Below, piece after piece: positions 7,377 to 56,877 of a stretch of 56,877 nucleotides of DNA (position 1 is its first letter; the number at the start of each line of letters is the position of its first letter). A program made the position numbers and the translations under genes. The notes beneath the pieces are model-generated. The model did not search any database and was not told the DNA's origin. It saw only the letters and a program-made list of their open reading frames with translations. Origin of the DNA: Prochlorococcus sp. AG-321-E21 (GTDB lineage: Bacteria; Cyanobacteriota; Cyanobacteriia; PCC-6307; Cyanobiaceae); contig QBXH01000008.1 in the NCBI GenBank assembly GCA_003283415.1, positions 1 to 56,877 of the forward strand, written 5' to 3'.

Positions 7377-8258
7377 ATGGAAATAAGACGTAGGCCTCCT
7401 AATCCAACAGTAAGGGTGGAAAATTTAGAATATGCCGTTCCTCATAGAGAGGCGAAAGCAAAAAATATTCTTGAAGAAATTGTTTGGCACAAAGATACTG
7501 AAATCAAAAATTTTAAGAAAATAGTTTCTCTTGAAGATCTAATAAAAAAGCTTGATAAACTTCCTCTTCCTAAAGACTTTTGTAAAAGTATATTGCAATC
7601 CAAAATCAAACCGGGAGTTATTGCTGAGATTAAAAAAGCTAGTCCTAGTAAAGGGGTGATTAGGGAAGATTTTAAACCAGAAGAAATTGCTTCTAGTTAT
7701 GAAAGATCTGGTGCCTCATGTATCTCGGTACTAACTGATAAAAGATTTTTTCAAGGGAGTTATGAAATTCTTCAGGAAGTCAGAGGAGCGACTAATTTGC
7801 CTTTGCTATGCAAAGATTTTATTATTTCTGCTTATCAAATATATAAAGCAAGAGTATCAGGTGCTGATGCAATATTATTAATTGCTGCAATTTTAAGTGA
7901 TGATGATTTAGTTTATTTGAAGAAAATTGCTGATAATTTAAAGATGAGTGTATTAGTTGAAGTTCATGATGACCAAGAACTTGAAAGGATATTGAGTTTT
8001 AAATCATTTGATTTAATTGGAATAAATAATAGAGATTTGAAGACTTTTAAAACTGATCTAAAAACATCAATAGAAATAATGAGCAAATATAACGATATAT
8101 TTTTAAAAAATAATATTCTTTCAATTAGTGAATCTGGAATTAATAACTCCGAAGATTTAAAAACTCTCGATTCAATTGGAATTAGGGGTGTTTTAATTGG
8201 CGAAAGGTTTATGAGGGAGAGAGATATTGAAAATAGTTTCAAAAAATTGTTTAATTAG
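7377..8258 (+). CDS. trpC: Indole-3-glycerol-phosphate synthase
   Basis: TIM-barrel enzyme of tryptophan synthesis that closes the indole ring from CdRP. The phosphate/active-site block [35 protein letters not shown] and the C-terminal SESGI...GVLIGERFM are all present. At 293 aa it carries an extra N-terminal stretch of about 30 residues ([12 protein letters not shown]...), as is usual for cyanobacterial TrpC. It follows lpd by 12 bases on the same strand. Confidence 0.94.
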
Positions 8259-8349
8259 TATAAATTTTTCTTTTGTATTAAATTAAATATAAGTGACTCT
8301 TTATGAAAGAGAAAAAGTTTTAGGATATTAAAATTCGAAAAAATTTTTT

Positions 8350-9021
8350 ATGCAAGTGGTAATACTTACAGGATTAATTGCAGGATTTATTCATGTAGTT
8401 AGCGGTGCAGATCATCTTATCGCAATGGCCCCCTCATCAATAACTGGACCAAAGCAGGCCCTCAGAAATAGCTACTCTTGGAGTTTGGGACACTCCTCAG
8501 GGATTGTAATTTTAGCTGTTTTAGCGATTTTCATAAAAGATATTGCTTCAATAAATAAATTTTCTCATTTTGCTGAATTTTTAGTAGGGATTTCTTTATT
8601 AGTGGTAGGCGTTTATGCAATTAAAAATTATTTTAATTTGAGGATTCATTCTCATTCTCATGAACATAAAAATGGAATTGCTCATGAACATATGCATTTC
8701 CATAGTAAAAATTTAAAAAGATATAATAATAATTCTCATGCCCTAACAGGTTTAGGACTCTTGCATGGTTTTGCGGGGGGGGCTCATATTTTAGCAATTC
8801 TTCCTGCTTTAGCTCTACCTCTACCAAATGCCTTGGCTTATTTAATTGCATATTTAATAGGCTCTTTCATAAGTATGAATCTATTTACTTGTTTGATATC
8901 TTTTACAACATTAAATGCAAGTCAAAACTTTGTAAAAAGGTTAATAGCTTTTGCTGGAGGTTTATCTTTTTCCATGGGATTATTTTGGATTCAGAAGAGT
9001 GCTTCTTTATTCATTAGTTAG
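8350..9021 (+). CDS. Nickel permease associated with Ni-SOD (NicO/HupE-like)
   Basis: Multi-pass inner-membrane protein (about six hydrophobic segments) of the nickel/cobalt transporter group. The metal signature HVVSGADHLIAMAP (residues 15-28) resembles the HX4-5DH motif of NicO/NiCoT permeases. It is followed by SWSLGHSSG, a histidine-rich loop (HSHSHEH ... HEHMHFH, about residues 99-117) and LGLLHGFAGGAHILA. It converges with sodX/sodN and very probably supplies nickel for that superoxide dismutase. The name sodT is used for this neighbourhood in cyanobacteria. Substrate specificity is inferred from motif and context. Confidence 0.82.
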   Translation: MQVVILTGLIAGFIHVVSGADHLIAMAPSSITGPKQALRNSYSWSLGHSSGIVILAVLAIFIKDIASINKFSHFAEFLVGISLLVVGVYAIKNYFNLRIHSHSHEHKNGIAHEHMHFHSKNLKRYNNNSHALTGLGLLHGFAGGAHILAILPALALPLPNALAYLIAYLIGSFISMNLFTCLISFTTLNASQNFVKRLIAFAGGLSFSMGLFWIQKSASLFIS

Positions 9022-14980: not shown

Positions 14981-15922
14981 ATGGCATCATCAGTATCAAC
15001 ATCAACTGAACCCCAAAAAAGAAGAGGTAACGATCCTATTAGTTGGTATCTTTCTAATATTGGTCGAGTTCCTTTATTAACTCCTGCTGAGGAAATTGAA
15101 TTGGGAAACCAAGTTCAAAAAATGATGGTTCTCACTGAAGACGGCCAATTAAATGAAAAAACAAAAGAATTTACTCCGCAAGAAAAAAGGACAATAAAAA
15201 TTGGAAGAAGATCAAAAGAGAGAATGATGAAGGCTAATCTAAGGTTAGTTGTGAGTGTTGCAAAAAAATATCAAGGGAAAGGATTAGAACTTTTAGATCT
15301 TGTTCAAGAAGGTTCTTTGGGTTTAGAAAGAGCGGTCGAGAAATTTGATCCTACAAGAGGATATAAGTTTTCTACATATGCCTTTTGGTGGATTCGCCAA
15401 AGTATGACGAGAGCTATTGCGTGTCAATCTAGAACTATTCGTTTACCAGTTCATTTAAGTGAGAGACTTGCGACTATTAGAAAAATAAGTAGGGAATTAG
15501 CTCATAAACTTGGAGCAATGCCAAATAGAATTGAAATTGCAGAAGCAATGGAAATAGATGTAGAGGAACTTGATTCTGTATTAAGACAAGCTTTATCTAC
15601 AAGTAGTTTGGACGCACCTGTTAATGGTGATGATGGGAGGAGTTTCTTAGGTGATCTTATCGCTGATAGTAATAATGAAGAGCCCCTAGACCAAGTTGAG
15701 CAGAAAATGCATCAAGAGCAGTTAGGTAAGTGGCTTAGTCATTTAAGTGAACAAGAACAGCATGTTTTGAAGTTAAGATTCGGTTTAGATGGAAACGAGA
15801 GGCATACCTTAGCAGAAATAGGAAGATTATTAGAAGTTTCCAGAGAAAGAGTAAGACAAGTTGAACTAAAGGCCCTTAGAAAACTACGAAATTTAACCAG
15901 AAAATTACCAAGTGGGATCTGA
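14981..15922 (+). CDS. RNA polymerase sigma factor, sigma-70 group 2 type
   Basis: A 313 aa sigma factor without region 1.1. Region 1.2 begins DPISWYLSNIGRVPLLTPAEE. Region 2 (about residues 84-155) has LRLVVSVAKKYQGKGLELLDL and the -10 recognition helix YKFSTYAFWWIRQSMTRAI. Region 3 follows, and region 4 ends with TLAEIGRLLEVSRERVRQVE. The length and missing region 1.1 point to a non-essential group 2 factor (SigB/C/D-like) rather than the housekeeping SigA. Its short upstream region carries two hairpins. It converges on pdhA with one base between stops. Confidence 0.9.
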   Translation: MASSVSTSTEPQKRRGNDPISWYLSNIGRVPLLTPAEEIELGNQVQKMMVLTEDGQLNEKTKEFTPQEKRTIKIGRRSKERMMKANLRLVVSVAKKYQGKGLELLDLVQEGSLGLERAVEKFDPTRGYKFSTYAFWWIRQSMTRAIACQSRTIRLPVHLSERLATIRKISRELAHKLGAMPNRIEIAEAMEIDVEELDSVLRQALSTSSLDAPVNGDDGRSFLGDLIADSNNEEPLDQVEQKMHQEQLGKWLSHLSEQEQHVLKLRFGLDGNERHTLAEIGRLLEVSRERVRQVELKALRKLRNLTRKLPSGI

Positions 15923-39705: not shown

Positions 39706-40749
39706 ATGCCTTCAAAAATAATTTCTTTAATATTTATCTTCTATCAGTTGTTTTTGCAAGTAACACTGGCTAGAAATCAATTTAAGAAAGGAGATATTAC
39801 ACAATCTAATTTAAATTGGGTTGAAAATGAAGCTGGTTTTAAAAAAGAAAAGTTAATATGGGAAGAAATTGATTTTAAATACGAAAGACAGATAATTGAA
39901 AACTCATTAACACAAAAGAAAAATTTAAGGAATCTAGAGATTAAAGCTCTTGATAGATCAGTTACCGTAAATTATTTACCATATCCCGAAATCTCTCATT
40001 ATGTTCCAAATGGATATGTGGAAGATGATAATAAATTTTTAACGGCGAGTTTGAGAACTATTAGTAAGTTGAGATTTTGTGATAGTGCAAACTTTGAGAC
40101 TAAATGTGCAGATGGATTATTAAATTTAGATTTTAATTTACTAAATGGAGATACTTATAGCTTTAATACGAAATTTAGTCTCCAGAGTATTTCTAACAGA
40201 GGGACTCCTTTTGGTGAAGAATCAAGTCTTGGTTTTAAGTTGGCCAAGGAAATCTCACCTAAATGGTCAGTAGCTATAGGAGGAGAAAATCTAATACATT
40301 TTGATGACTCAATAGATTTAGGTAGAAATTTCTACTTTGTAGCTAGTACGTACCAGAAGTTAAATAATAATAGAAAAGAAAATCCTACATTGCTTTTTAT
40401 AAACGTAGGCGTTGGCTCCGATTTTTATGGTTATAAAGGTAATGGTTTTTTAGCAAGAACTTCATGTTTTGGGCAACCAAATCTTACAGGGAATGGTACT
40501 AATACTTGTTCTTGGGGACCTATTGGATCAGTAGCTTTAGCTTTTAATGATAGGATTTCATTTGTTAATGAATGGTTTGGATACGGATATGGTACGGGAA
40601 TTTCTTTCAAACCTATAGTGGAAAAACCCTTAATATTTTCAATTTATGCGACAGATTTCATAAAAGGATTTCCAGTATATGTTGAAGAACATTGCCCTAA
40701 TAACAAATGCACTCCAAGATTTTATGGTAATATTAGCCTAAGTTTTTAA
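39706..40749 (+). CDS. Predicted exported outer-membrane beta-barrel protein, 347 aa
   Basis: Unrecognised. An N-terminal signal peptide (IISLIFIFYQLFLQVTLA, cleavage near residue 22) precedes a charged helical stretch. From about residue 110 there are many alternating aromatic/polar strands (FNTKFSLQSIS, WSVAIGGENLIHF, FYFVASTYQKL, LLFINVGVGSDFYGY). The protein ends YGNISLSF, and a C-terminal Phe after a beta strand is the classical outer-membrane-protein signature. Four cysteines lie in loops. It is followed 10 bases later by another exported protein, at the edge of the tRNA-Ala island. Confidence 0.6.
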   Translation: MPSKIISLIFIFYQLFLQVTLARNQFKKGDITQSNLNWVENEAGFKKEKLIWEEIDFKYERQIIENSLTQKKNLRNLEIKALDRSVTVNYLPYPEISHYVPNGYVEDDNKFLTASLRTISKLRFCDSANFETKCADGLLNLDFNLLNGDTYSFNTKFSLQSISNRGTPFGEESSLGFKLAKEISPKWSVAIGGENLIHFDDSIDLGRNFYFVASTYQKLNNNRKENPTLLFINVGVGSDFYGYKGNGFLARTSCFGQPNLTGNGTNTCSWGPIGSVALAFNDRISFVNEWFGYGYGTGISFKPIVEKPLIFSIYATDFIKGFPVYVEEHCPNNKCTPRFYGNISLSF

Positions 40750-40759
40750 TATAATAAAA

Positions 40760-41392
40760 GTGAAACTTACAAAACTAAAGAGAATATTTTTGTCAACATT
40801 ATTCTTGACTTTACCTTTTAACTCAGGTGCTATTCTTGCGAATGAACTTATAAATAGCAATAAAAATACAATATTAATAGCAGAAGCTAAAGGTTACAGG
40901 GAGCATGAAGATAAAAGTGAAAATCAAGATGATTATCATTCAATTAATCATGATTGGGATAATCATTATCACACAATTAGATCTATTAGATTAAAGAAAA
41001 ATGGAAATCTAAAAATTCGGTTTTGCGAAAAAGTTGAATTATTAGAAGGTCAAGTTTATGCAGATAATATGAAATATGATGTAAAAGATGCTTATAAAAT
41101 CAAAAAAAGAAGCATTACATGGCGTCTTAATAAAAAACGAACTTTTAAATTAGGAGATACAATTTTTGTAAATACAAAAGATTTCCGAGGTAGACCTATT
41201 GAGAAAAGTCCTAATAAAAATGAAATAAGATCGCTTAATCGAGGGTGTGGATTACCTTTCCTATATTTGCCACCTGGAGTAGAAGTATCAGATGGTGGAC
41301 CATCTCTTGGCATTATTGCTATAATTATAGGAGTTGGTGCGGCTATTGGAGGAGGCTCGTCAGGTGGAACAGGAGGCGCTTCTCATAATTAA
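40760..41392 (+). CDS. Hypothetical exported protein with glycine-rich C-terminus, 210 aa
   Basis: GTG start. The signal peptide (FLSTLFLTLPFNSGAILA) is followed by a His/Asp-rich stretch (YREHEDKSENQDDYHSINHD, residues about 46-65), a beta-rich domain (LKKNGNLKIRFCEKVELLEGQ) and a hydrophobic glycine-rich tail (LGIIAIIIGVGAAIGGGSSGGTGG) that could insert in a membrane. The His/Asp stretch could bind metal; that is inference. Likely cotranscribed with the barrel-like gene upstream. Not recognised. Confidence 0.6.
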   Translation: MKLTKLKRIFLSTLFLTLPFNSGAILANELINSNKNTILIAEAKGYREHEDKSENQDDYHSINHDWDNHYHTIRSIRLKKNGNLKIRFCEKVELLEGQVYADNMKYDVKDAYKIKKRSITWRLNKKRTFKLGDTIFVNTKDFRGRPIEKSPNKNEIRSLNRGCGLPFLYLPPGVEVSDGGPSLGIIAIIIGVGAAIGGGSSGGTGGASHN

Positions 41393-41684
41393 GTATATAA
41401 AATCAATAGCTATGCTTATATTTAAATAAACTTTACTAATTTTATATTTTTTCAGATAATTTAATAATAAAAAATTGTAAGCTGCACCCATGAAGAACTT
41501 GACTCTTTAATTAGGTGAGGAATTGCTTTAGAACAGTACCAGAAATTATGCTACAACTTGTAAATCACTAGGTGTATTTTAAGATGCAGAATCCATTAAT
41601 CAAACGCTATAAAGTACTATAGGAATTACGGAAGTTACGAAATAAATCTTTAGATTGATTGATATAACTGTCGTTTCAGGATAT
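41393..41684. other. Intergenic region before tRNA-Ala
   Basis: About 290 bases without a convincing gene. One plus-strand frame (about 41511-41644) reads protein-like between three in-frame stops (RNYATTCKSLGVF * DAESINQTL *), possibly a decayed gene but too short to assign. Confidence 0.3.
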
Positions 41685-41757
41685 GGGGCCATAGCTCAGC
41701 TGGTAGAGCACCTGCATGGCATGCAGGGGGTCAGCGGTTCGAGTCCGCTTGGCTCCA
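41685..41757 (+). tRNA. tRNA-Ala (anticodon GGC)
   Basis: Complete 73-nt cloverleaf. Acceptor GGGGCCA pairs with TGGCTCC including the G3-U70 pair that defines alanine identity, discriminator A, D-arm with AGCTCAGCTGGTAGAGC, anticodon stem CCTGC/GCAGG with loop ATGGCAT (GGC), T-arm GGTTCGAGTCC. No encoded CCA. It is the boundary of the accessory island: its 3' part recurs three times downstream. Confidence 0.96.
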
Positions 41758-41805
41758 TCAGGATTTTCGCTAGTTATACCAATTATTTTGACTAATTTAA
41801 GATAA

Positions 41806-41884
41806 CAAAACGATACGTTTTGATAAGTTAAAATATGGCAAAAATATGACCCCTCAGCGACCAACTCTGCTACGAGATACTCGT
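41806..41884. repeat. Two ATA-centred inverted repeats downstream of tRNA-Ala
   Basis: CAAAACG-ATA-CGTTTTG (41806-41822) and ACGAG-ATA-CTCGT (41872-41884), both with a three-base ATA centre. The second begins in AACTCTGCTACGAG, which resembles the CTCTGCGAGC elements beside the tRNA relics. Possible protein-binding sites of an integration system or small hairpins. Confidence 0.45.
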
Positions 41885-41923
41885 TATGAATTAAGGTTAT
41901 CTAAATTTATAAAAAATATTATT

Positions 41924-42646
41924 CTAAATTTTCCTTTTAATTATTTTTTGTCTTAAATCCAATAAAAGAAGTTGATAATAAAATAATTCTATAAATTCAC
42001 CATCTAATAAATATCTATATTCTAAAATTCCGAAAATTTTTCTCATAGCAAATGAAAAAATTATATTAAAAATATAAATCAAACCAAATAATAAAAATCT
42101 TTTCTCAAAAAAAATAAAACTAAACTTTTTAAGATAAGGAAGAAATCCTCCAAAACTAAATACTATAAATATTAAAGAATAAATAACTAGTCCTAAGGTA
42201 ATATCATCAGGCCAGAAATTATCGCCATATTGATTATTATTAAATAATTTCAAAGAAAAAAGGAATGAATTATGAATATTAAATTCTGTCTGGCCATTCC
42301 AAATTTCTAAAAAAGATTTGTTAAAGAAATCTTTAAAAAAGAAACTGGTTTCTTCAAAAATAAGAAAAATTGGGATAAAAATTCTTATAGCAAAAGCTAT
42401 TAAATTATTGGAATATTTTATTAGAAGTTTTCTATTTTTAAAAATTAAAAATATATTCAAAAATAATAAAACTAATTGTATAAACTCTATTAAACTGAAT
42501 AATCCATGAGTTTCATGAATTCTATTTTCCCTTAAAAACCAAAGACCTTCTTGACTAAAGCTGTTTAATGAAGCAACTATAAGAACAGTAAGGATTGAAA
42601 TTAAATAGAAATCAATCTTATCAAATAGATGTTTTTTAAAAAGCAT
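41924..42646 (-). CDS. Polytopic membrane protein, 240 aa
   Basis: About six hydrophobic segments. The central stretch FEETSFFFKDF ... IWNGQTEFNIHN resembles the 'EEISWGQ ... N.Q.E.NLHN' motif of a family of bacterial membrane proteins of unknown function. Here the Trp-Gly-Gln part is replaced by FFF, so it is a divergent member at best. It is first after the tRNA-Ala attachment region and lies on the minus strand like the sulfotransferase module. Function unknown. Confidence 0.6.
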   Translation of the reverse strand: MLFKKHLFDKIDFYLISILTVLIVASLNSFSQEGLWFLRENRIHETHGLFSLIEFIQLVLLFLNIFLIFKNRKLLIKYSNNLIAFAIRIFIPIFLIFEETSFFFKDFFNKSFLEIWNGQTEFNIHNSFLFSLKLFNNNQYGDNFWPDDITLGLVIYSLIFIVFSFGGFLPYLKKFSFIFFEKRFLLFGLIYIFNIIFSFAMRKIFGILEYRYLLDGEFIELFYYQLLLLDLRQKIIKRKI

Positions 42647-43114
42647 AAATTTTTAAAAATATATTATTAAACTTATAAAAATGTACTAAAAATTTTTTTA
42701 ATCAAAAGTACAAATAAGCTTTTTATCCATAAATACTCTATACTCGCACCATTTATTACAATAAATAGAAAAATTTTCACTTTGTAATTAGTTGTCAAAA
42801 AAAGAGATATTTAAAATCAATAATTAAAGATAAAAAAGAGTAATTTTATCTTGTATTGTTAATATTGTTATCTGTGCGAGCAGCCCTGCGAGCAAAATGC
42901 CGAAAACACCTGCAAAACCTAGTTATAGCTTAGTTGGTGATCTGCATGGCATGCAGGGGGTCAGCGGTTAGAGTCCGCTCGGCTTGTTTTGAATCACTAA
43001 GAATAAAAAAATAAATGATTATGAATATTAAATTAATTATTTATTTAAATTACTTAAAAAAACAAGTTTGTTATTGTAAATAGAAAAATTAAGATTTAAA
43101 AATTGATATAAGAT
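42647..43114. other. Intergenic region holding tRNA relic copy 2
   Basis: About 470 AT-rich bases between the membrane protein and the small gene at 43115. Apart from the repeat block at 42872-42986, nothing coding or structured was recognised. Confidence 0.4.
42872..42986 (+). repeat. Direct repeat A with tRNA-Ala relic (copy 2)
   Basis: Degenerate tRNA-Ala at 42921-42986: ATAGCTTAGTTGGTGA (broken D-arm), the intact anticodon arm CTGCATGGCATGCAG, and GGTCAGCGGTTAGAGTCCGC, with the acceptor lost. Upstream from 42872 is non-tRNA sequence with two CTG(T)GCGAGC elements. The whole block recurs at 46708-46825. Interpreted as an old integration site, not a functional tRNA. Confidence 0.85.
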
Positions 43115-43369
43115 ATGAAACTCAAAAAAGAAACAAAAAATTTTTTCATTTTTTTACTTGCTATGTTTTCTTCATCTATTTCACCAGCTTATGCATATGG
43201 TGGACCAGGAGCCGCTATTGGAGCGATTATAGTTTTAATAACTATAATTATTGCATTTTTCTCATCTTTAATAATTAAAATTTTCAATTTAATTAAAGTT
43301 TCCTTTTCTAAATTAAGAAAATACTTAAAATCAAATCAAAAAAATGATACAAAGAATAAAAATAAATAA
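43115..43369 (+). CDS. Small exported membrane protein, 84 aa
   Basis: Signal-like N-terminus (FFIFLLAMFSSSISPAYA, cleavage near residue 27), then YGGPGAAIGAIIVLITIIIAFF forming one transmembrane helix, then a lysine-rich cytoplasmic tail. Glycine-rich GPGAAIGA before the helix is a pattern seen in small cyanobacterial membrane proteins. It lies just inside the module bracketed by the tRNA-derived repeats. Not recognised. Confidence 0.6.
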   Translation: MKLKKETKNFFIFLLAMFSSSISPAYAYGGPGAAIGAIIVLITIIIAFFSSLIIKIFNLIKVSFSKLRKYLKSNQKNDTKNKNK

Positions 43370-43495
43370 TTCAGAGAGTTCTAATTTATAAAGATTAATT
43401 TAAAAAAAAATACTAATCTTTTTTATTGAATTAATTCAATAAAAATATTTTTCTGATCTTTTGGAAAAAATAATTAATTTAATATCATTAATCAA

Positions 43496-44938
43496 TTATT
43501 TTTCAGAGATTAATTTTTCTATAGTGAAACTTGGAATATCATTTAATCTTCTGGACCAAGCCATCATATAATACTTCTCATCATTGTCTTTGTTGATATA
43601 TTCCCATAATAGTTTTTTCTCTTTAAAATCTATTTCGAGTAATCTGCCATAATTAGTTTCCTCAACAAAAATAGAATTATTTTTTTCAATTTTGTCTGAT
43701 AACCCTTCAGTAACTGTTCTTGGAATAAGTTTTTTATCAAGAAAATTAAAATCAATATAACTCAATTCCAGATTTTTTTCCTCATTATGATTAGATGCTT
43801 TATTATATATTTTCGTTTCGTATTTCTCTTTGGAGTTTAGTGAAGGCAAATTATTTATTGTTCTATAAATATTGTGTTTTACTTTATTTCCAGGCTCAAA
43901 ATGTGTACTAGGGAAAAGACGATTATTATCAAAAATTGAGATATGACTACCATTTTTATCTATGAAATCCGCATCATGTTGTTTAGTCCCATATCCTTTT
44001 AAAACCCATACTACTTTTCTTTTTTTTAAATCATAAGCAAGAATACTCGATTGATGAGCTAAACTAAGAAGTACAAATTCTGTCTCTTTATTATTTCTTA
44101 GTGGTTCTACATCATTTATATGAAAAGGATCATTAGTAGCACCCTCAGAATAAAGAAAGTAATCTAAGCCTGCTGATTTAAAAATATCAAGAAGAAAGTG
44201 TGTTTCTAATATATTTAAATCTTTATCTAATATTGCAAATCCATCGGTATGTAGTTTGCCTTTCTCTCTAATAGGAGCATAAATTTTTTCTTGATAATCT
44301 TTTTCTAATGAATGATGGAATTCATAAAAAGAGTTAAATTTTAAAACTTCTCCATCTTTTGAAAATTTTGTAATTGGGCCTGTGCCAACTGAACTATTCA
44401 AAATTAAACTTCCATCAGATAATAATAATGGGTGTGTAAACGTGACTGAATTTTTATTTAGTTTTACCCCGGTTATGGATAAAAATTTTCTCATTTTAAA
44501 TTGCCATTTATGAATTAGTTTCTGATTATTCATATCCCAAAGCTCTACAAATGGAATACCGTCTTTATAAGGATCCGCTGCTGATAAAAGCAAGAATCCA
44601 GCATTTTTTCGGGACCCTTGCTCATAATAAAAATTGAAGCCTTTTTTTAATGAATTAAATCTATTAGATGTATCTTCGATATTTTTTACTATTCTGCCTG
44701 ATGTAGATAGCTCATTTTTGACAACAGTATTTAATTCGCTTAAATTTTTTATTACAAATTTACTTGGTATGTTAATTCTTGATTTTTTAATTAAATTACA
44801 CTTCAAAGTAGATACTTTGCCCTCATGACAATATTTTTGATCATATATACCAATTGCTTGAAAAAATATTATGGATGAAATAATTAAAAAGTAGTTTTGA
44901 AGAGGTACTAAATAAGATTTTATTTTTTTTATTTTCAT
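43496..44938 (-). CDS. Arylsulfotransferase-like protein (ASST family)
   Basis: 480 aa with an N-terminal signal/anchor (residues 14-30). The beta-propeller-like body contains DPFHINDVEPL, LLSLAHQSSILAYDLKKRKVVWVLKG, QHDADFIDKNGSHISIFDNN, NYGRLLEIDFKEKKLLWEYIN and a final YYMMAWSRRL. These resemble the 'D.FH.N', 'HD..L..G..L.FDNG' and 'A.R' blocks of PF05935/PF14269 arylsulfotransferases, which move sulfate between phenolic or sugar esters outside the cytoplasm without PAPS. Substrate unknown. Same strand as the PAPS-type sulfotransferase 73 bases upstream. Confidence 0.65.
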   Translation of the reverse strand: MKIKKIKSYLVPLQNYFLIISSIIFFQAIGIYDQKYCHEGKVSTLKCNLIKKSRINIPSKFVIKNLSELNTVVKNELSTSGRIVKNIEDTSNRFNSLKKGFNFYYEQGSRKNAGFLLLSAADPYKDGIPFVELWDMNNQKLIHKWQFKMRKFLSITGVKLNKNSVTFTHPLLLSDGSLILNSSVGTGPITKFSKDGEVLKFNSFYEFHHSLEKDYQEKIYAPIREKGKLHTDGFAILDKDLNILETHFLLDIFKSAGLDYFLYSEGATNDPFHINDVEPLRNNKETEFVLLSLAHQSSILAYDLKKRKVVWVLKGYGTKQHDADFIDKNGSHISIFDNNRLFPSTHFEPGNKVKHNIYRTINNLPSLNSKEKYETKIYNKASNHNEEKNLELSYIDFNFLDKKLIPRTVTEGLSDKIEKNNSIFVEETNYGRLLEIDFKEKKLLWEYINKDNDEKYYMMAWSRRLNDIPSFTIEKLISEK

Positions 44939-45011
44939 CTGAGATATAATTTTTTTATTATTTTAAAACTATAAATAATTTTATAAATTATTATTACTTT
45001 ATAATAAAAAA

Positions 45012-46052
45012 TTAATTTAGATCATAAAGTTTTGAATAAATTAATTTCGATAAATCAAAAAGATTTTGATCAACTTTGAGATTAAGTTTAATGTTATTTT
45101 TATTTTTAAGTATAATTCTAAAATCTTTCTTTAATTGAGTTAATGTAAATATATTTTCTAGTTTGGTGCTATTAGTTTTACAGAGTTCCTCATAAGAAGT
45201 TAAAAATAAATTGTTAGGTTTTTTTGAAGTTACATATTCAAGAAGCCAAGAATATAAATTTATCCAAGACTTCAACCAAAAATCAAGTTTTTCTTTGGTA
45301 TTAATAATTGATTCTTTTTGATCATCTTTTATTTCATAAAAAAAAGGCTTTTGATTTAAACCAAATTCCCTATGTCCTATTAGATTCATATATTCTAAAA
45401 TAAAAGGATCATTTTTTTGAGCTTCACATATCCTTTGGTGAGTTTTATCTAAAGATAAGGCATGAGATATAGGATCTCTAAATAAAACGATAAATAAATC
45501 ATCTTTAAAATATTTACAAAGCTGGGGTAAACGTAAAAGATTATTATTGTTTTTGATCAAAATTTTTTTCTTTTTTTGAAAAATAGCATGCCTACTTAAA
45601 AAATTATCATAATCAATTAAAGTTTTATTTTTATATTTTCTTTTGACAGAAAGGGGTTGGGAAAAATATAAAGGATTTTCTTTAATCCAAAAAGGTTCAT
45701 CAAGACATTCAGGAGATTCAATAGATATTTTGATACCATCTTTATGCAGTCTTTCAATTGATTCTAACTTTTTTTTATTTATAAATTTTGAATATATATT
45801 TGCTAGCCTTGGATTAAGAATGAAAGGCATATGAGAATACTTTAGTGAAGCAAACTGATTAGATAAATAAAGCTGATTTAGAAGAGCTGTTGTTCCAGCT
45901 CTTGCAAGACCACATATAAAGATCTTTTGTACGTTATCTTTTGGTTTTTTATATTTTTTAATTCTTTCATATAAAAAATTAGAGATCTCACTATTGCCAA
46001 GAAATTGCTTATGTAAATGCTGATCTAAGCTAGAATAATTAGAAAAGGTCAT
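45012..46052 (-). CDS. Sulfotransferase, PAPS-dependent type
   Basis: 346 aa soluble protein. The 5'-phosphosulfate loop KIFICGLARAGTTALLNQL (about residues 43-61) and the 3'-phosphate motif LFIVLFRDPISHALSL (about 188-203) are the two PAPS-binding signatures. Its ATG overlaps the stop of the small membrane gene upstream (ATGA), so the two are coupled. Together with the ASST-like gene it suggests a sulfation function for an exported or surface molecule; the acceptor is unknown. Confidence 0.82.
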   Translation of the reverse strand: MTFSNYSSLDQHLHKQFLGNSEISNFLYERIKKYKKPKDNVQKIFICGLARAGTTALLNQLYLSNQFASLKYSHMPFILNPRLANIYSKFINKKKLESIERLHKDGIKISIESPECLDEPFWIKENPLYFSQPLSVKRKYKNKTLIDYDNFLSRHAIFQKKKKILIKNNNNLLRLPQLCKYFKDDLFIVLFRDPISHALSLDKTHQRICEAQKNDPFILEYMNLIGHREFGLNQKPFFYEIKDDQKESIINTKEKLDFWLKSWINLYSWLLEYVTSKKPNNLFLTSYEELCKTNSTKLENIFTLTQLKKDFRIILKNKNNIKLNLKVDQNLFDLSKLIYSKLYDLN

Positions 46053-46369
46053 TTTTTATAAAATAGTAGTGAAGTAAAAGTAAAAGATGAAATTAATAAA
46101 GAAAAATTATAATTTCCAATGACTTTAAAAATTAATAAACAAGTTATTAAATAAGGAATAATACATAATAATAATGAGCCTATTAATATAATCCCGCTGT
46201 AAGACAATTTATCAAGATCTTTGCTTTTTAAACTATTAATTGAATTCTTGACCTTTATAAGATCTTTTTTATAAATATAAAAATTTTTATTTAAATTAGC
46301 TTTCCCAAAAGTGAATTTAAAGGTATAAAAGCCAATCATTAAAATAAAAATTAAAAGAATAAATTTCAT
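46049..46369 (-). CDS. Small membrane protein coupled to sulfotransferase, 106 aa
   Basis: An N-terminal transmembrane helix (ILLIFILMIGFYTFKFTF), a charged helical loop (about 22-58), and two C-terminal helices (IILIGSLLLCIIPYLITCLLIF; split at about residue 70) ending in YKK. No family recognised. It starts the minus-strand operon that runs into the sulfotransferase and ASST-like genes. Confidence 0.55.
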   Translation of the reverse strand: MKFILLIFILMIGFYTFKFTFGKANLNKNFYIYKKDLIKVKNSINSLKSKDLDKLSYSGIILIGSLLLCIIPYLITCLLIFKVIGNYNFSLLISSFTFTSLLFYKK

Positions 46370-46707
46370 TATTTAGTTTTTTTATCTTTTTATAAATGAA
46401 CATAATAAATAATATTAAAATACAAATCTATTTATTTTTGTGTTTTTATTATATAAAGTAAAATTTCATATTCTGCTACCTCAACATTTTTTTCATTAAA
46501 TCAATAATATCTAGCTTGTTTATGTTGATATATTCTAAAATATCGAGAAGTTTAATATTAACAGAAATAGATTTTTTTAATTTTTTTTCTTAATAGAATG
46601 AAGTTTTATCTTCAAGTATGTTTATCGTTTTCTCTTCATTTTGAATAAAGACCAAATTCATTACAACTTATATTTTTGTTTTATTTAAATCTGTCTTTAA
46701 TTATGGT

Positions 46708-46825
46708 AACTCTGCGAGCTATTCTGCGAGCTAATCAATGAAAACAGTTGTAAAACCTAGTTATAGCTTGATTGGTGATCTGCATGGCATGCAGGGGGTC
46801 AGCGGTTCAAATCCGCTTGGCTCCA
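46708..46825 (+). repeat. Direct repeat A with tRNA-Ala relic (copy 3)
   Basis: Second copy of the block at 42872-42986. It starts with CTCTGCGAGC twice (46710-46735 region), continues AAAACCTAGTTATAGCTTG, then the relic 46759-46825 with intact anticodon arm, T-arm GGTTCAAATCC and perfect 3' end CTTGGCTCCA. The 5' acceptor strand is absent, so no cloverleaf can form. Confidence 0.87.
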
Positions 46826-46907
46826 CTTGATTCTTAGGTTATGAGATATAGTAATGGTGTGTTTTAGAGGTGTGTTCTTAAATTAGACATTATTTGCAGA
46901 TTATTTA

Positions 46908-46950
46908 CATGGCATGCAGGGGGTCAGTGGTTCGAGTCCGCTTGGATCCA
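46908..46950 (+). repeat. tRNA-Ala 3' relic (copy 4)
   Basis: CATGGCATGCAGGGGGTCAG through GGTTCGAGTCCGCTTGGATCCA, i.e. from the anticodon loop to the 3' end of tRNA-Ala with two changes. No D-arm homology. Same orientation as the intact tRNA. Confidence 0.87.
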
Positions 46951-56803: not shown

Positions 56804-56877
56804 AAATTAATTATTTATTGAGAAAAAAATTATTAATCAGCAAATCATAATTCTATTCCTTTTCTGAAAGTATATAA

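Follow-up and report, generated by a model that had tools for sequence, protein, structure and literature searches.

Probable serial site-specific integration at a tRNA-Ala gene of Prochlorococcus, as read from element ends and attachment-site relics

What is recorded by partial copies of a tRNA gene that lie one behind another on the same strand? The question is raised by contig QBXH01000008.1 of Prochlorococcus sp. AG-321-E21, analysed here over its full 56,877 nucleotides (the window); the window is the entire contig, ending at 56877 with the far side of the island beyond it. An intact tRNA-Ala(GGC) gene lies at 41684-41759 on the forward strand (ARAGORN; Rfam 65.5 bits) and 46 nt of it, spanning anticodon arm to 3′ end, are repeated on the same strand at 42942-42987 (89%), 46780-46825 (96%) and 46905-46950 (91%). 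These three copies, termed relics c2, c3 and c4, score below the Rfam tRNA threshold, c2 and c3 being 79% alike over 137 nt including non-tRNA sequence on their left. At up to three mismatches the core pattern has exactly four matches in the source assembly (1.31 Mb, 73% complete), all in the array of the window, with none for the reversed control; it is present in 184 of 266 genomes of the genus, the window's genome having the highest number (n = 4). An earlier note on this DNA had described a tRNA-Ala(GGC) followed by three same-strand partial copies, with no recombinase in the window, and both points are borne out, the first by ARAGORN, comparison of the 46-nt repeats and the genome-wide core scan, the second by a search for PF00589 at E ≤ 1 that gave no match in the window contig and four in the genome on contigs C14, C1, C27 and C2 (two over the cut-off). 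Its description of the copies as degenerate fits in part, in that they are partial, but the left part of c2 and c3 is a conserved element arm and not random decay. Overall, the locus is very probably explained by an array of serial site-specific integrations at tRNA-Ala(GGC), in which one class of units (class A) was likely moved in trans.

The evidence comes from 121 loci, namely the window and 120 fetched stretches around tRNA-Ala copies (some from one genome), in which a first count by 46-nt mismatch scan gave 112 intact tRNAs and 52 relics. At least two core matches (up to three mismatches, some on separate contigs) occur in 46 of the 266 genomes by reading of the table, and since fetching favoured such multi-copy genomes the unit counts below are not frequencies. 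To the left of the relic core a small number of conserved sequence classes can be told apart, namely A, B, C and some small ones; to the right the tRNA-Ala 3′ half is followed by a flank that in many relics is also of few classes. Each relic is a right attachment site in three parts: the arm of an element, the core in the anticodon loop and, from an earlier version of the tRNA, the 3′ end. Left- and right-flank profiles were built separately and then applied to all copies, yielding 35 new hits of which 14 were used as relics, 14 were set aside as overlapping intact tRNAs and seven were left out by judgement as short, weak or coreless (L052 6591, L055 3064, L074 5601, L121 6380, L130 on the other strand, L172 12067 and L196 3300). 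Two contigs, L149 and L157, carry inverted copies of the locus and are probably amplification chimeras of single-cell genomes.

Between consecutive copies, 57 units were delimited in 48 of the 121 loci, with the 14 profile-found relics included, and where both ends could be classed they agreed in 42 of 44 (A-A 26, C-C 11, B-B 5). When the end classes were shuffled 100,000 times the mean agreement was 19.8 and the maximum 32, with no shuffle reaching 42. Likewise, leaving out the profile-found relics gave 43 units, 33 classed at both ends, with 31 of the 33 matching against a shuffle maximum of 26, and for relic-to-relic units deep in the stacks the classed ends matched in eight of eight. We take this to show, on comparison of sequences, that the intervals between copies are coherent two-ended elements inserted one behind another.

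Filled and empty sites can be compared in other strains. The sequence to the right of the outer relic in L124 is 93% identical over 1416 bp to that right of the single intact tRNA in L173, the similarity starting at the core, with a 5.8 kb insert of L124 (two units by profile) missing from L173. L062 and L138 have 1079 bp in common, beginning at the 5′ end of the tRNA and reaching into the relic, and are unrelated on either side of it. Within this cassette the gene part, which encodes an FkbM family methyltransferase, is 94% identical between the two and 92% identical to that of L157, a third genome, in which a relic precedes it; core DNA, compared over two segments, is 85% identical for L062 and L138 and 72-73% identical against the L157 genome. 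The L157 contig holds an inverted repeat typical of amplification chimeras, so its cassette must be read with care. Taken with the matched ends, the L124/L173 pair and the stopping of cassette homology at tRNA and relic bear out the proposal in the earlier note of at least three stacked insertions in one orientation, and serial site-specific integration at tRNA-Ala is supported.

The position of the crossover can be read from the relics themselves. The 52 3′-relics mostly keep tRNA positions 28-73 (position 30 being class-specific and T-arm types varying) and have mostly lost the earlier positions, whereas eight relics of the other kind, the 5′-relics described below, keep positions 1-39 and have lost the later ones. 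The stretch common to both, 31-39 or C-ATGGCAT-G, is the anticodon loop plus one base at either end, lying within the inverted repeat that the anticodon stem forms. The standard CGG/CCG T arm is found in 36 of 38 copies with a class A right flank, whereas after class A relics several T-arm types occur; T-arm type thus tracks the right flank, and each 3′-side insertion therefore overwrites the tRNA 3′ half.

The arms of the elements also have an internal order. Arms are conserved across strains over roughly 140 and 90 bp. In class A both contain a pair of CTGCGASC motifs 12 nt apart, which starts mostly 142 nt to the right (12 of 20) and 68 nt to the left (12 of 17) of the anticodon-arm register; the positions are fixed in much the same way in classes B and C, where the motifs are different. 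The exact pattern CTGCGASC-N4-CTGCGASC has 24 matches in 16 of the 266 genomes, with none for the control, all on the strand of their tRNA-Ala. In 23 cases the match adjoins a copy of the tRNA-Ala core (21 at pattern-found copies and two, overlapping, at the second, profile-found relic of L052), the 24th being a class A arm without a core in L194, 1.3 kb downstream of tRNA-Ala. The cultured strain MIT 9302 is among those with a class A right end. Some units, the solo units, are cargo-free and have a single repeat pair that serves both arms. Solo lengths predicted from the modal geometry are close to those found: 68 + 142 = 210 for class A against 208 in L063, and 79 + 141 = 220 for class B against 220 in L053. 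We infer from these regularities that the arm repeats are integrase arm-type sites, between which cargo can be lost.

A second polarity of insertion is found on the other side of the gene. In several genomes an intact divergent integrase gene lies just 5′ of tRNA-Ala, and near-perfect tRNA-Ala 5′ halves can lie upstream of it. Two 5′ halves occur in 10 of the 266 genomes by reading of the table, and in the eight examined the right side of the 5′-relic was always of flank class U2 or U3, with the same class and the same arm motif (GGTGCA or GGCGCA, one base changed in G111) on the 5′ flank of the intact tRNA of that genome, the class agreement being by hidden Markov model (HMM) in seven and by eye in G111. 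In G129 the 5′-relic stands about 70 bp behind lexA, the spot where eight other tRNA-Ala genes sit intact. Such 5′ units therefore deliver a new 5′ half and flank, moving the intact tRNA to their far end, and elements inserting 5′ of the tRNA constitute a second polarity for U2 and U3 and, by analogy, perhaps for U4. Among 111 tRNA-Ala genes the 5′ flank is of class U2, U3 or U4 in 74, lexA-adjacent in eight and neither in 29, and 15 have homology to a divergent integrase in the 400 bp upstream. In the window, the flank 5′ of the tRNA is itself of element-end type, a point missed by the earlier note. The upstream integrase was also considered as a fixed platform of the integron type; this was dropped as the main reading because the 5′-half relics with matching arms, in the eight cases examined, place such integrases in insertable units of their own.

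These observations suggest a mechanism in which the crossover region would be the anticodon loop ATGGCAT, between the CTGC and GCAG arms of the anticodon stem. A 3′-side element would carry its own tRNA 3′ half and P′ arm, such that each insertion rebuilds a whole tRNA while pushing the older units downstream and leaving at its far end the P arm, the core and the 3′ half of the previous tRNA. Elements of the opposite polarity would supply the tRNA with a fresh 5′ half and 5′ flank, an integrase lying beside it in some loci; the window tRNA has a U2 flank. If the repeat pair of one arm recombined with that of the other, the cargo would be lost and a solo unit would result. For the window this mechanism would imply at least three insertions, namely of the single-gene class A unit 1, of unit 2 with its class A right end and four open reading frames (ORFs), and of the empty class E unit 3. 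Class A units, with paired arm repeats at fixed distances and no intact integrase, would most likely be non-autonomous and moved in trans by a tyrosine recombinase.

None of the 26 A-A units matched any of five integrase proteins from this locus, which did match in one of five B-B units and in five of 11 C-C units, in two of these as fragments. The median unit size is 1.2 kb for class A and 6.0 kb for class C. By mechanical calling of ORFs of at least 60 aa, 20 of the 26 A-A units have one, one has two, three have three and two have none. A Pfam scan of 20 A-type cargo proteins, with further ORFs of multi-gene A units outside it, gave seven of the FkbM methyltransferase family (one weak; L062 and L138 being the same cassette), two with other methyltransferase domains and one each of GDSL hydrolase, acyltransferase-SGNH and DegT aminotransferase, with no match at 1e-4 in the other eight. 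This, together with the content of unit 2 of the window, suggests that the cargo may modify surface glycans.

Where then is the integrase of class A? In G124, G246 and G256 a left arm resembling that of class A (assigned by eye in two) is directly followed by N-terminal integrase fragments or pseudogenes, and a search with the class A fragment gives a 20-residue match in one A-A unit, that of L170, right behind a P′_A-like arm. Beside P′_A no full-length class A integrase was found; full-length relatives occur in G113 and G059, of which the fetched loci are without core or arm pair. The fragments behind class-A-like arms indicate that the family probably began as autonomous elements like those of class C, of which the unit in L043 has integrase, excisionase-like and AAA/primase-like genes. 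It is possible, though less likely than not, that class A units are dead remnants of autonomous tycheposon-like elements which lost their integrase after insertion and are now immobile, in keeping with the remnant at the same place in L170, with the intact integrases that class C units of the same layout can hold and with the decay of many A arms, the left arm of unit 1 in the window included. Random decay would hardly leave 26 units as uniform as these, with their median of 1.2 kb and mostly one ORF, and the FkbM cassette is far more alike between genomes than their core DNA, so that at least one cassette moved without an integrase of its own, or by recombination.

A reading that goes further than serial integration is that of a tRNA-anchored, integron-like slot, in which class A cassettes would be moved in trans to switch glycans, 5′-side elements would replace the tRNA 5′ half together with its upstream flank, and the tRNA would be rebuilt from both sides by competing families. 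If true, surface-glycan switching would proceed by cassettes plugged in and out at tRNA-Ala; as a whole this reading is doubtful. Integrons are marked by the attC hairpin and IntI, neither of which was seen at the tRNA-Ala loci (no attC search was made), and the window contig has no integrase. Class A units do resemble integron cassettes and clusters of attC sites lacking integron-integrases (CALIN), as far as described in the part of the account available, in being integrase-less units with recombination sites that are possibly served by an integrase elsewhere (PMC11389934). Unlike these, the attachment sites here carry arm repeats, are built on the tRNA and are kept at both unit ends.

It is unlikely that cargo was swapped by homologous recombination between conserved arms or tRNA copies without an integrase, such that the slot stays and the gene changes. 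The length over which arms are conserved across strains would permit it, solo units resemble the outcome of recombination between arm repeats and replacement islands exchanged by double crossover are described in the available part of one account (PMC7771536). The left and right sequence sources nevertheless switch at the anticodon loop, and the nested matched ends (eight of eight) together with the break between filled and empty sites at the core require insertion and not exchange. That the copies are tandem duplications of the tRNA, pseudogenes left by its decay or structured RNAs, with no mobile element involved, is extremely improbable. The D-arm-like stretch that c2 and c3 retain, and which might suggest it, is a conserved class-specific arm that strains have in common and that goes with a single kind of left end; the relics fall below the Rfam tRNA threshold, and the loop at which 3′-relics are truncated from one side is that at which 5′-relics are truncated from the other. 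The matches to HPnc0260 and other Rfam families are below the gathering score, both HPnc0260 matches being antisense to T arms, and the relics were rejected as RNAs of these kinds.

Several points weigh against serial integration with class A moved in trans. The same loci supplied the seeds of the arm HMMs, and the classes were labelled after pairing. Two units, in L047 and L122, have mixed ends, and there would have been more mismatches had the weak class C hits L074 5601 and L121 6380 been counted. Cores are poor (7-10 edits) in the profile-found relics of L059, L140, L151, L156, L162, L172 and L196, and L194 is coreless. The class A pair, with one mismatch allowed per motif, is found in only 20 of 40 P′_A and 17 of 35 P_A flanks, and the solos of L121 (181) and of the B variant in L058 and L059 (144 and 145) are shorter than predicted. 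Movement of class A in trans is conjectural in so far as its integrase is known only as fragments. In the window the left arm of unit 2 is unrecognised and class E for the left arm of c4, the right end of unit 3, is an assignment by eye. None of the fetched loci carries on from the outer flank of the window at a tRNA copy and no fetched relative has the same stack; as such, presence and absence were seen in other strains and not for the window's units. The best relative of the arylsulfotransferase-like protein in the window is 41% identical, with relatives in 18 other genomes of the 266. No circular form or junction was met among the sequences compared.

From the left, the window holds lexA, two Pfam-less ORFs, a U2 end, the tRNA, units 1, 2 and 3, the outermost relic and sugar-nucleotide genes to the contig end. 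The two ORFs (39706-41392) have 5′-side relatives in L117 at 50 and 67% identity, the first having 3′-side relatives also in L059 (52%) and L076 (47%), so similar cargo can occupy either side of the tRNA. The U2 flank (41530..41683, +; HMM class U2, 105 bits), like the right end of a 5′-side element, contains a decayed arm pair, GGTGTATT at 41571 and GATGCAG at 41583, which is intact as GGTGCATTTTAAGGTGCAG in L127, L158 and L190; the homologous flank adjoins a divergent integrase in L127 and L128, and on the 5′ side of the window tRNA neither an integrase nor a 5′-relic was found. In the intact tRNA (41684..41759, +) the anticodon loop ATGGCAT is the putative attB/attL core, in keeping with ARAGORN, Rfam and the conservation profile. 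Unit 1 (1230 bp) begins with a class A P′ arm (41758..41890, +; class A right-flank HMM, 94 bits), in which the arm motif marks a site CAGCGACC at 41855-41862 and a decayed second site at 41867-41874. Its sole cargo ORF (41924..42646, −) encodes 240 aa with no Pfam match at E ≤ 0.01, and it ends in a class A P arm (42874..42941, +) with the arm pair GTGCGAGC at 42874 and CTGCGAGC at 42886, recognised by the class A left-arm HMM, of which this arm was a seed, and by geometry. With class A at both ends and one Pfam-less ORF, unit 1 is a cis-mobilizable element (CIME) in the sense that attL and attR are kept and recombination or transfer genes are absent.

Relic c2 (42942..42987, +), identified like c3 and c4 by comparison of the 46-nt repeat, joins the core to an older tRNA-Ala 3′ end. 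Unit 2 (3838 bp) carries at 43115..46369 an 84-aa ORF on the forward strand and, all on the reverse strand, an arylsulfotransferase-like protein of 480 aa, a sulfotransferase of 346 aa and a 106-aa ORF (PF14269, PF13469). The earlier note took this stretch (43.1-46.4 kb) as a sulfation module forming a cargo unit; it does lie inside a unit with a class A right end, the left arm of which, as said, is not recognised. That right end is a P arm (46712..46779, +) with an intact arm pair, CTGCGAGC twice, at 46712-46731 (arm-pair pattern, HMM), followed by relic c3 (46780..46825, +), core and older tRNA 3′ end. In unit 3, a 125-bp unit without cargo, the stretch 46826..46904 (+) has a class E left end (class E right-flank HMM, 102 bits, the window's unit 3 being one of its four seeds) and a single repeat pair, GGTGTGTT, read from the solo-unit sequence at 46856 and 46869, 13 nt apart. 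The unit is closed by the third relic, c4 (46905..46950, +), again core and older tRNA 3′ end and the outermost copy. The sugar cluster (47.2-56.7 kb) had been proposed as a further cargo unit, for which there is no support since core copies end at 46950 and the contig runs to 56877.

In the literature searched, no description was met of two polarities at one tRNA, of a grammar of arm classes or of solo units in Prochlorococcus, parts of which may be contained in the 2023 work of Hackl et al., reportedly on the tycheposons of Prochlorococcus. New here are class A, the commonest family, which is mostly single-gene and without an intact integrase, the second, 5′ polarity, the family-specific arm repeats and the cargo-free solo units. 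Like tycheposons, the elements have a tRNA border, cargo and a tyrosine recombinase, the last in the five C-C units noted above and beside some U ends, and the gene set of the class C unit in L043 is a further likeness. Unlike tycheposons, class A units are mostly single-gene and the window units are below 4 kb and without a recombinase. The window's units do not qualify as tycheposons, given the lack of a tyrosine recombinase and unit sizes of 1.2, 3.8 and 0.1 kb against the range of 4-200 kb given in the available part of one account (PMC10872708). tRNA-targeted cassettes in islands of marine bacteria have already been described, as far as the parts available of two accounts go (PMC7771536; PMC4119200). 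The nearest likeness is fGI1 of Ca. Actinomarinales, an additive flexible genomic island (fGI) with tRNA-targeted gene cassettes; the part of that account available is without the element arms, families, matched ends, 5′-side insertion and cargo-free solos of the Prochlorococcus array (PMC7771536).

A comparison can also be made with the tandem ssrA islands of Dehalococcoides, the integrase of which, DsiB, has been likened to CcrB in the portion of the account available (PMC3146451). There the islands are stacked and bounded by repeats of the 3′ end of the RNA gene, and 15 islands without an integration module were proposed to be cis-mobilizable and moved by accretion (PMC3146451). They differ in having a T-loop site, and the same portion describes neither arm-repeat classes nor a second polarity (PMC3146451). 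The implications of the Prochlorococcus array are several. So-called tRNA relics become a readable grammar, in which arm class, core, T-arm type and polarity would order the insertions in a Prochlorococcus genome. The arms supply predicted integrase arm sites that are open to in vitro test, and a defined small unit of roughly 240 bp of arms and one gene could serve as a gene carrier. Class A may also be a route for swapping single surface-modifying genes, which bears on phage escape by streamlined phytoplankton. As to the type of enzyme, CcrB is a serine recombinase and a tyrosine recombinase is the candidate here.

Class A elements were also sought in viruses and rejected there, the P_A-core pattern giving no match in viral contigs. 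Neither the 82-aa class A integrase fragment nor the 240-aa cargo of unit 1 has relatives among viral contigs, and for 60 residues of the fragment there are none in phages. For the c2 region there are matches in 10 phage records, which in each case cover 25-36% of the query and fall on its tRNA-like part. In IMG/VR, 21 viral contigs (L263-L283), including contigs of 57.9 and 63.5 kb, contain the tRNA-Ala core; in the 75 nt to its left none has a whole tRNA 5′ half, a few retain its last 10-17 nt and many resemble an attP with other arms. Viruses or satellites of marine cyanobacteria thus seem to use the same tRNA-Ala as a target.

The placing of tRNA-Ala relative to lexA varies. The two are co-directional, the tRNA right behind lexA, in L044, L066, L072, L121, L151, L160, L193 and L195, and convergent at 0.2 to 16 kb in L059, L060, L065, L188 and others, so either the tRNA or the island has moved or undergone inversion. 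Class B and class C units alike have, at their right end by the P arm, a small conserved gene (ATKQETELRVAHAAELV...), for instance in L043 (oriented 8179-8574) and L051 (oriented 15439-15708). Its copies are about 90% identical in DNA over some 360 bp in most units and 74% in L043, where the copy has no Pfam or PHROG match, and it is perhaps a family-wide regulator or packaging factor.

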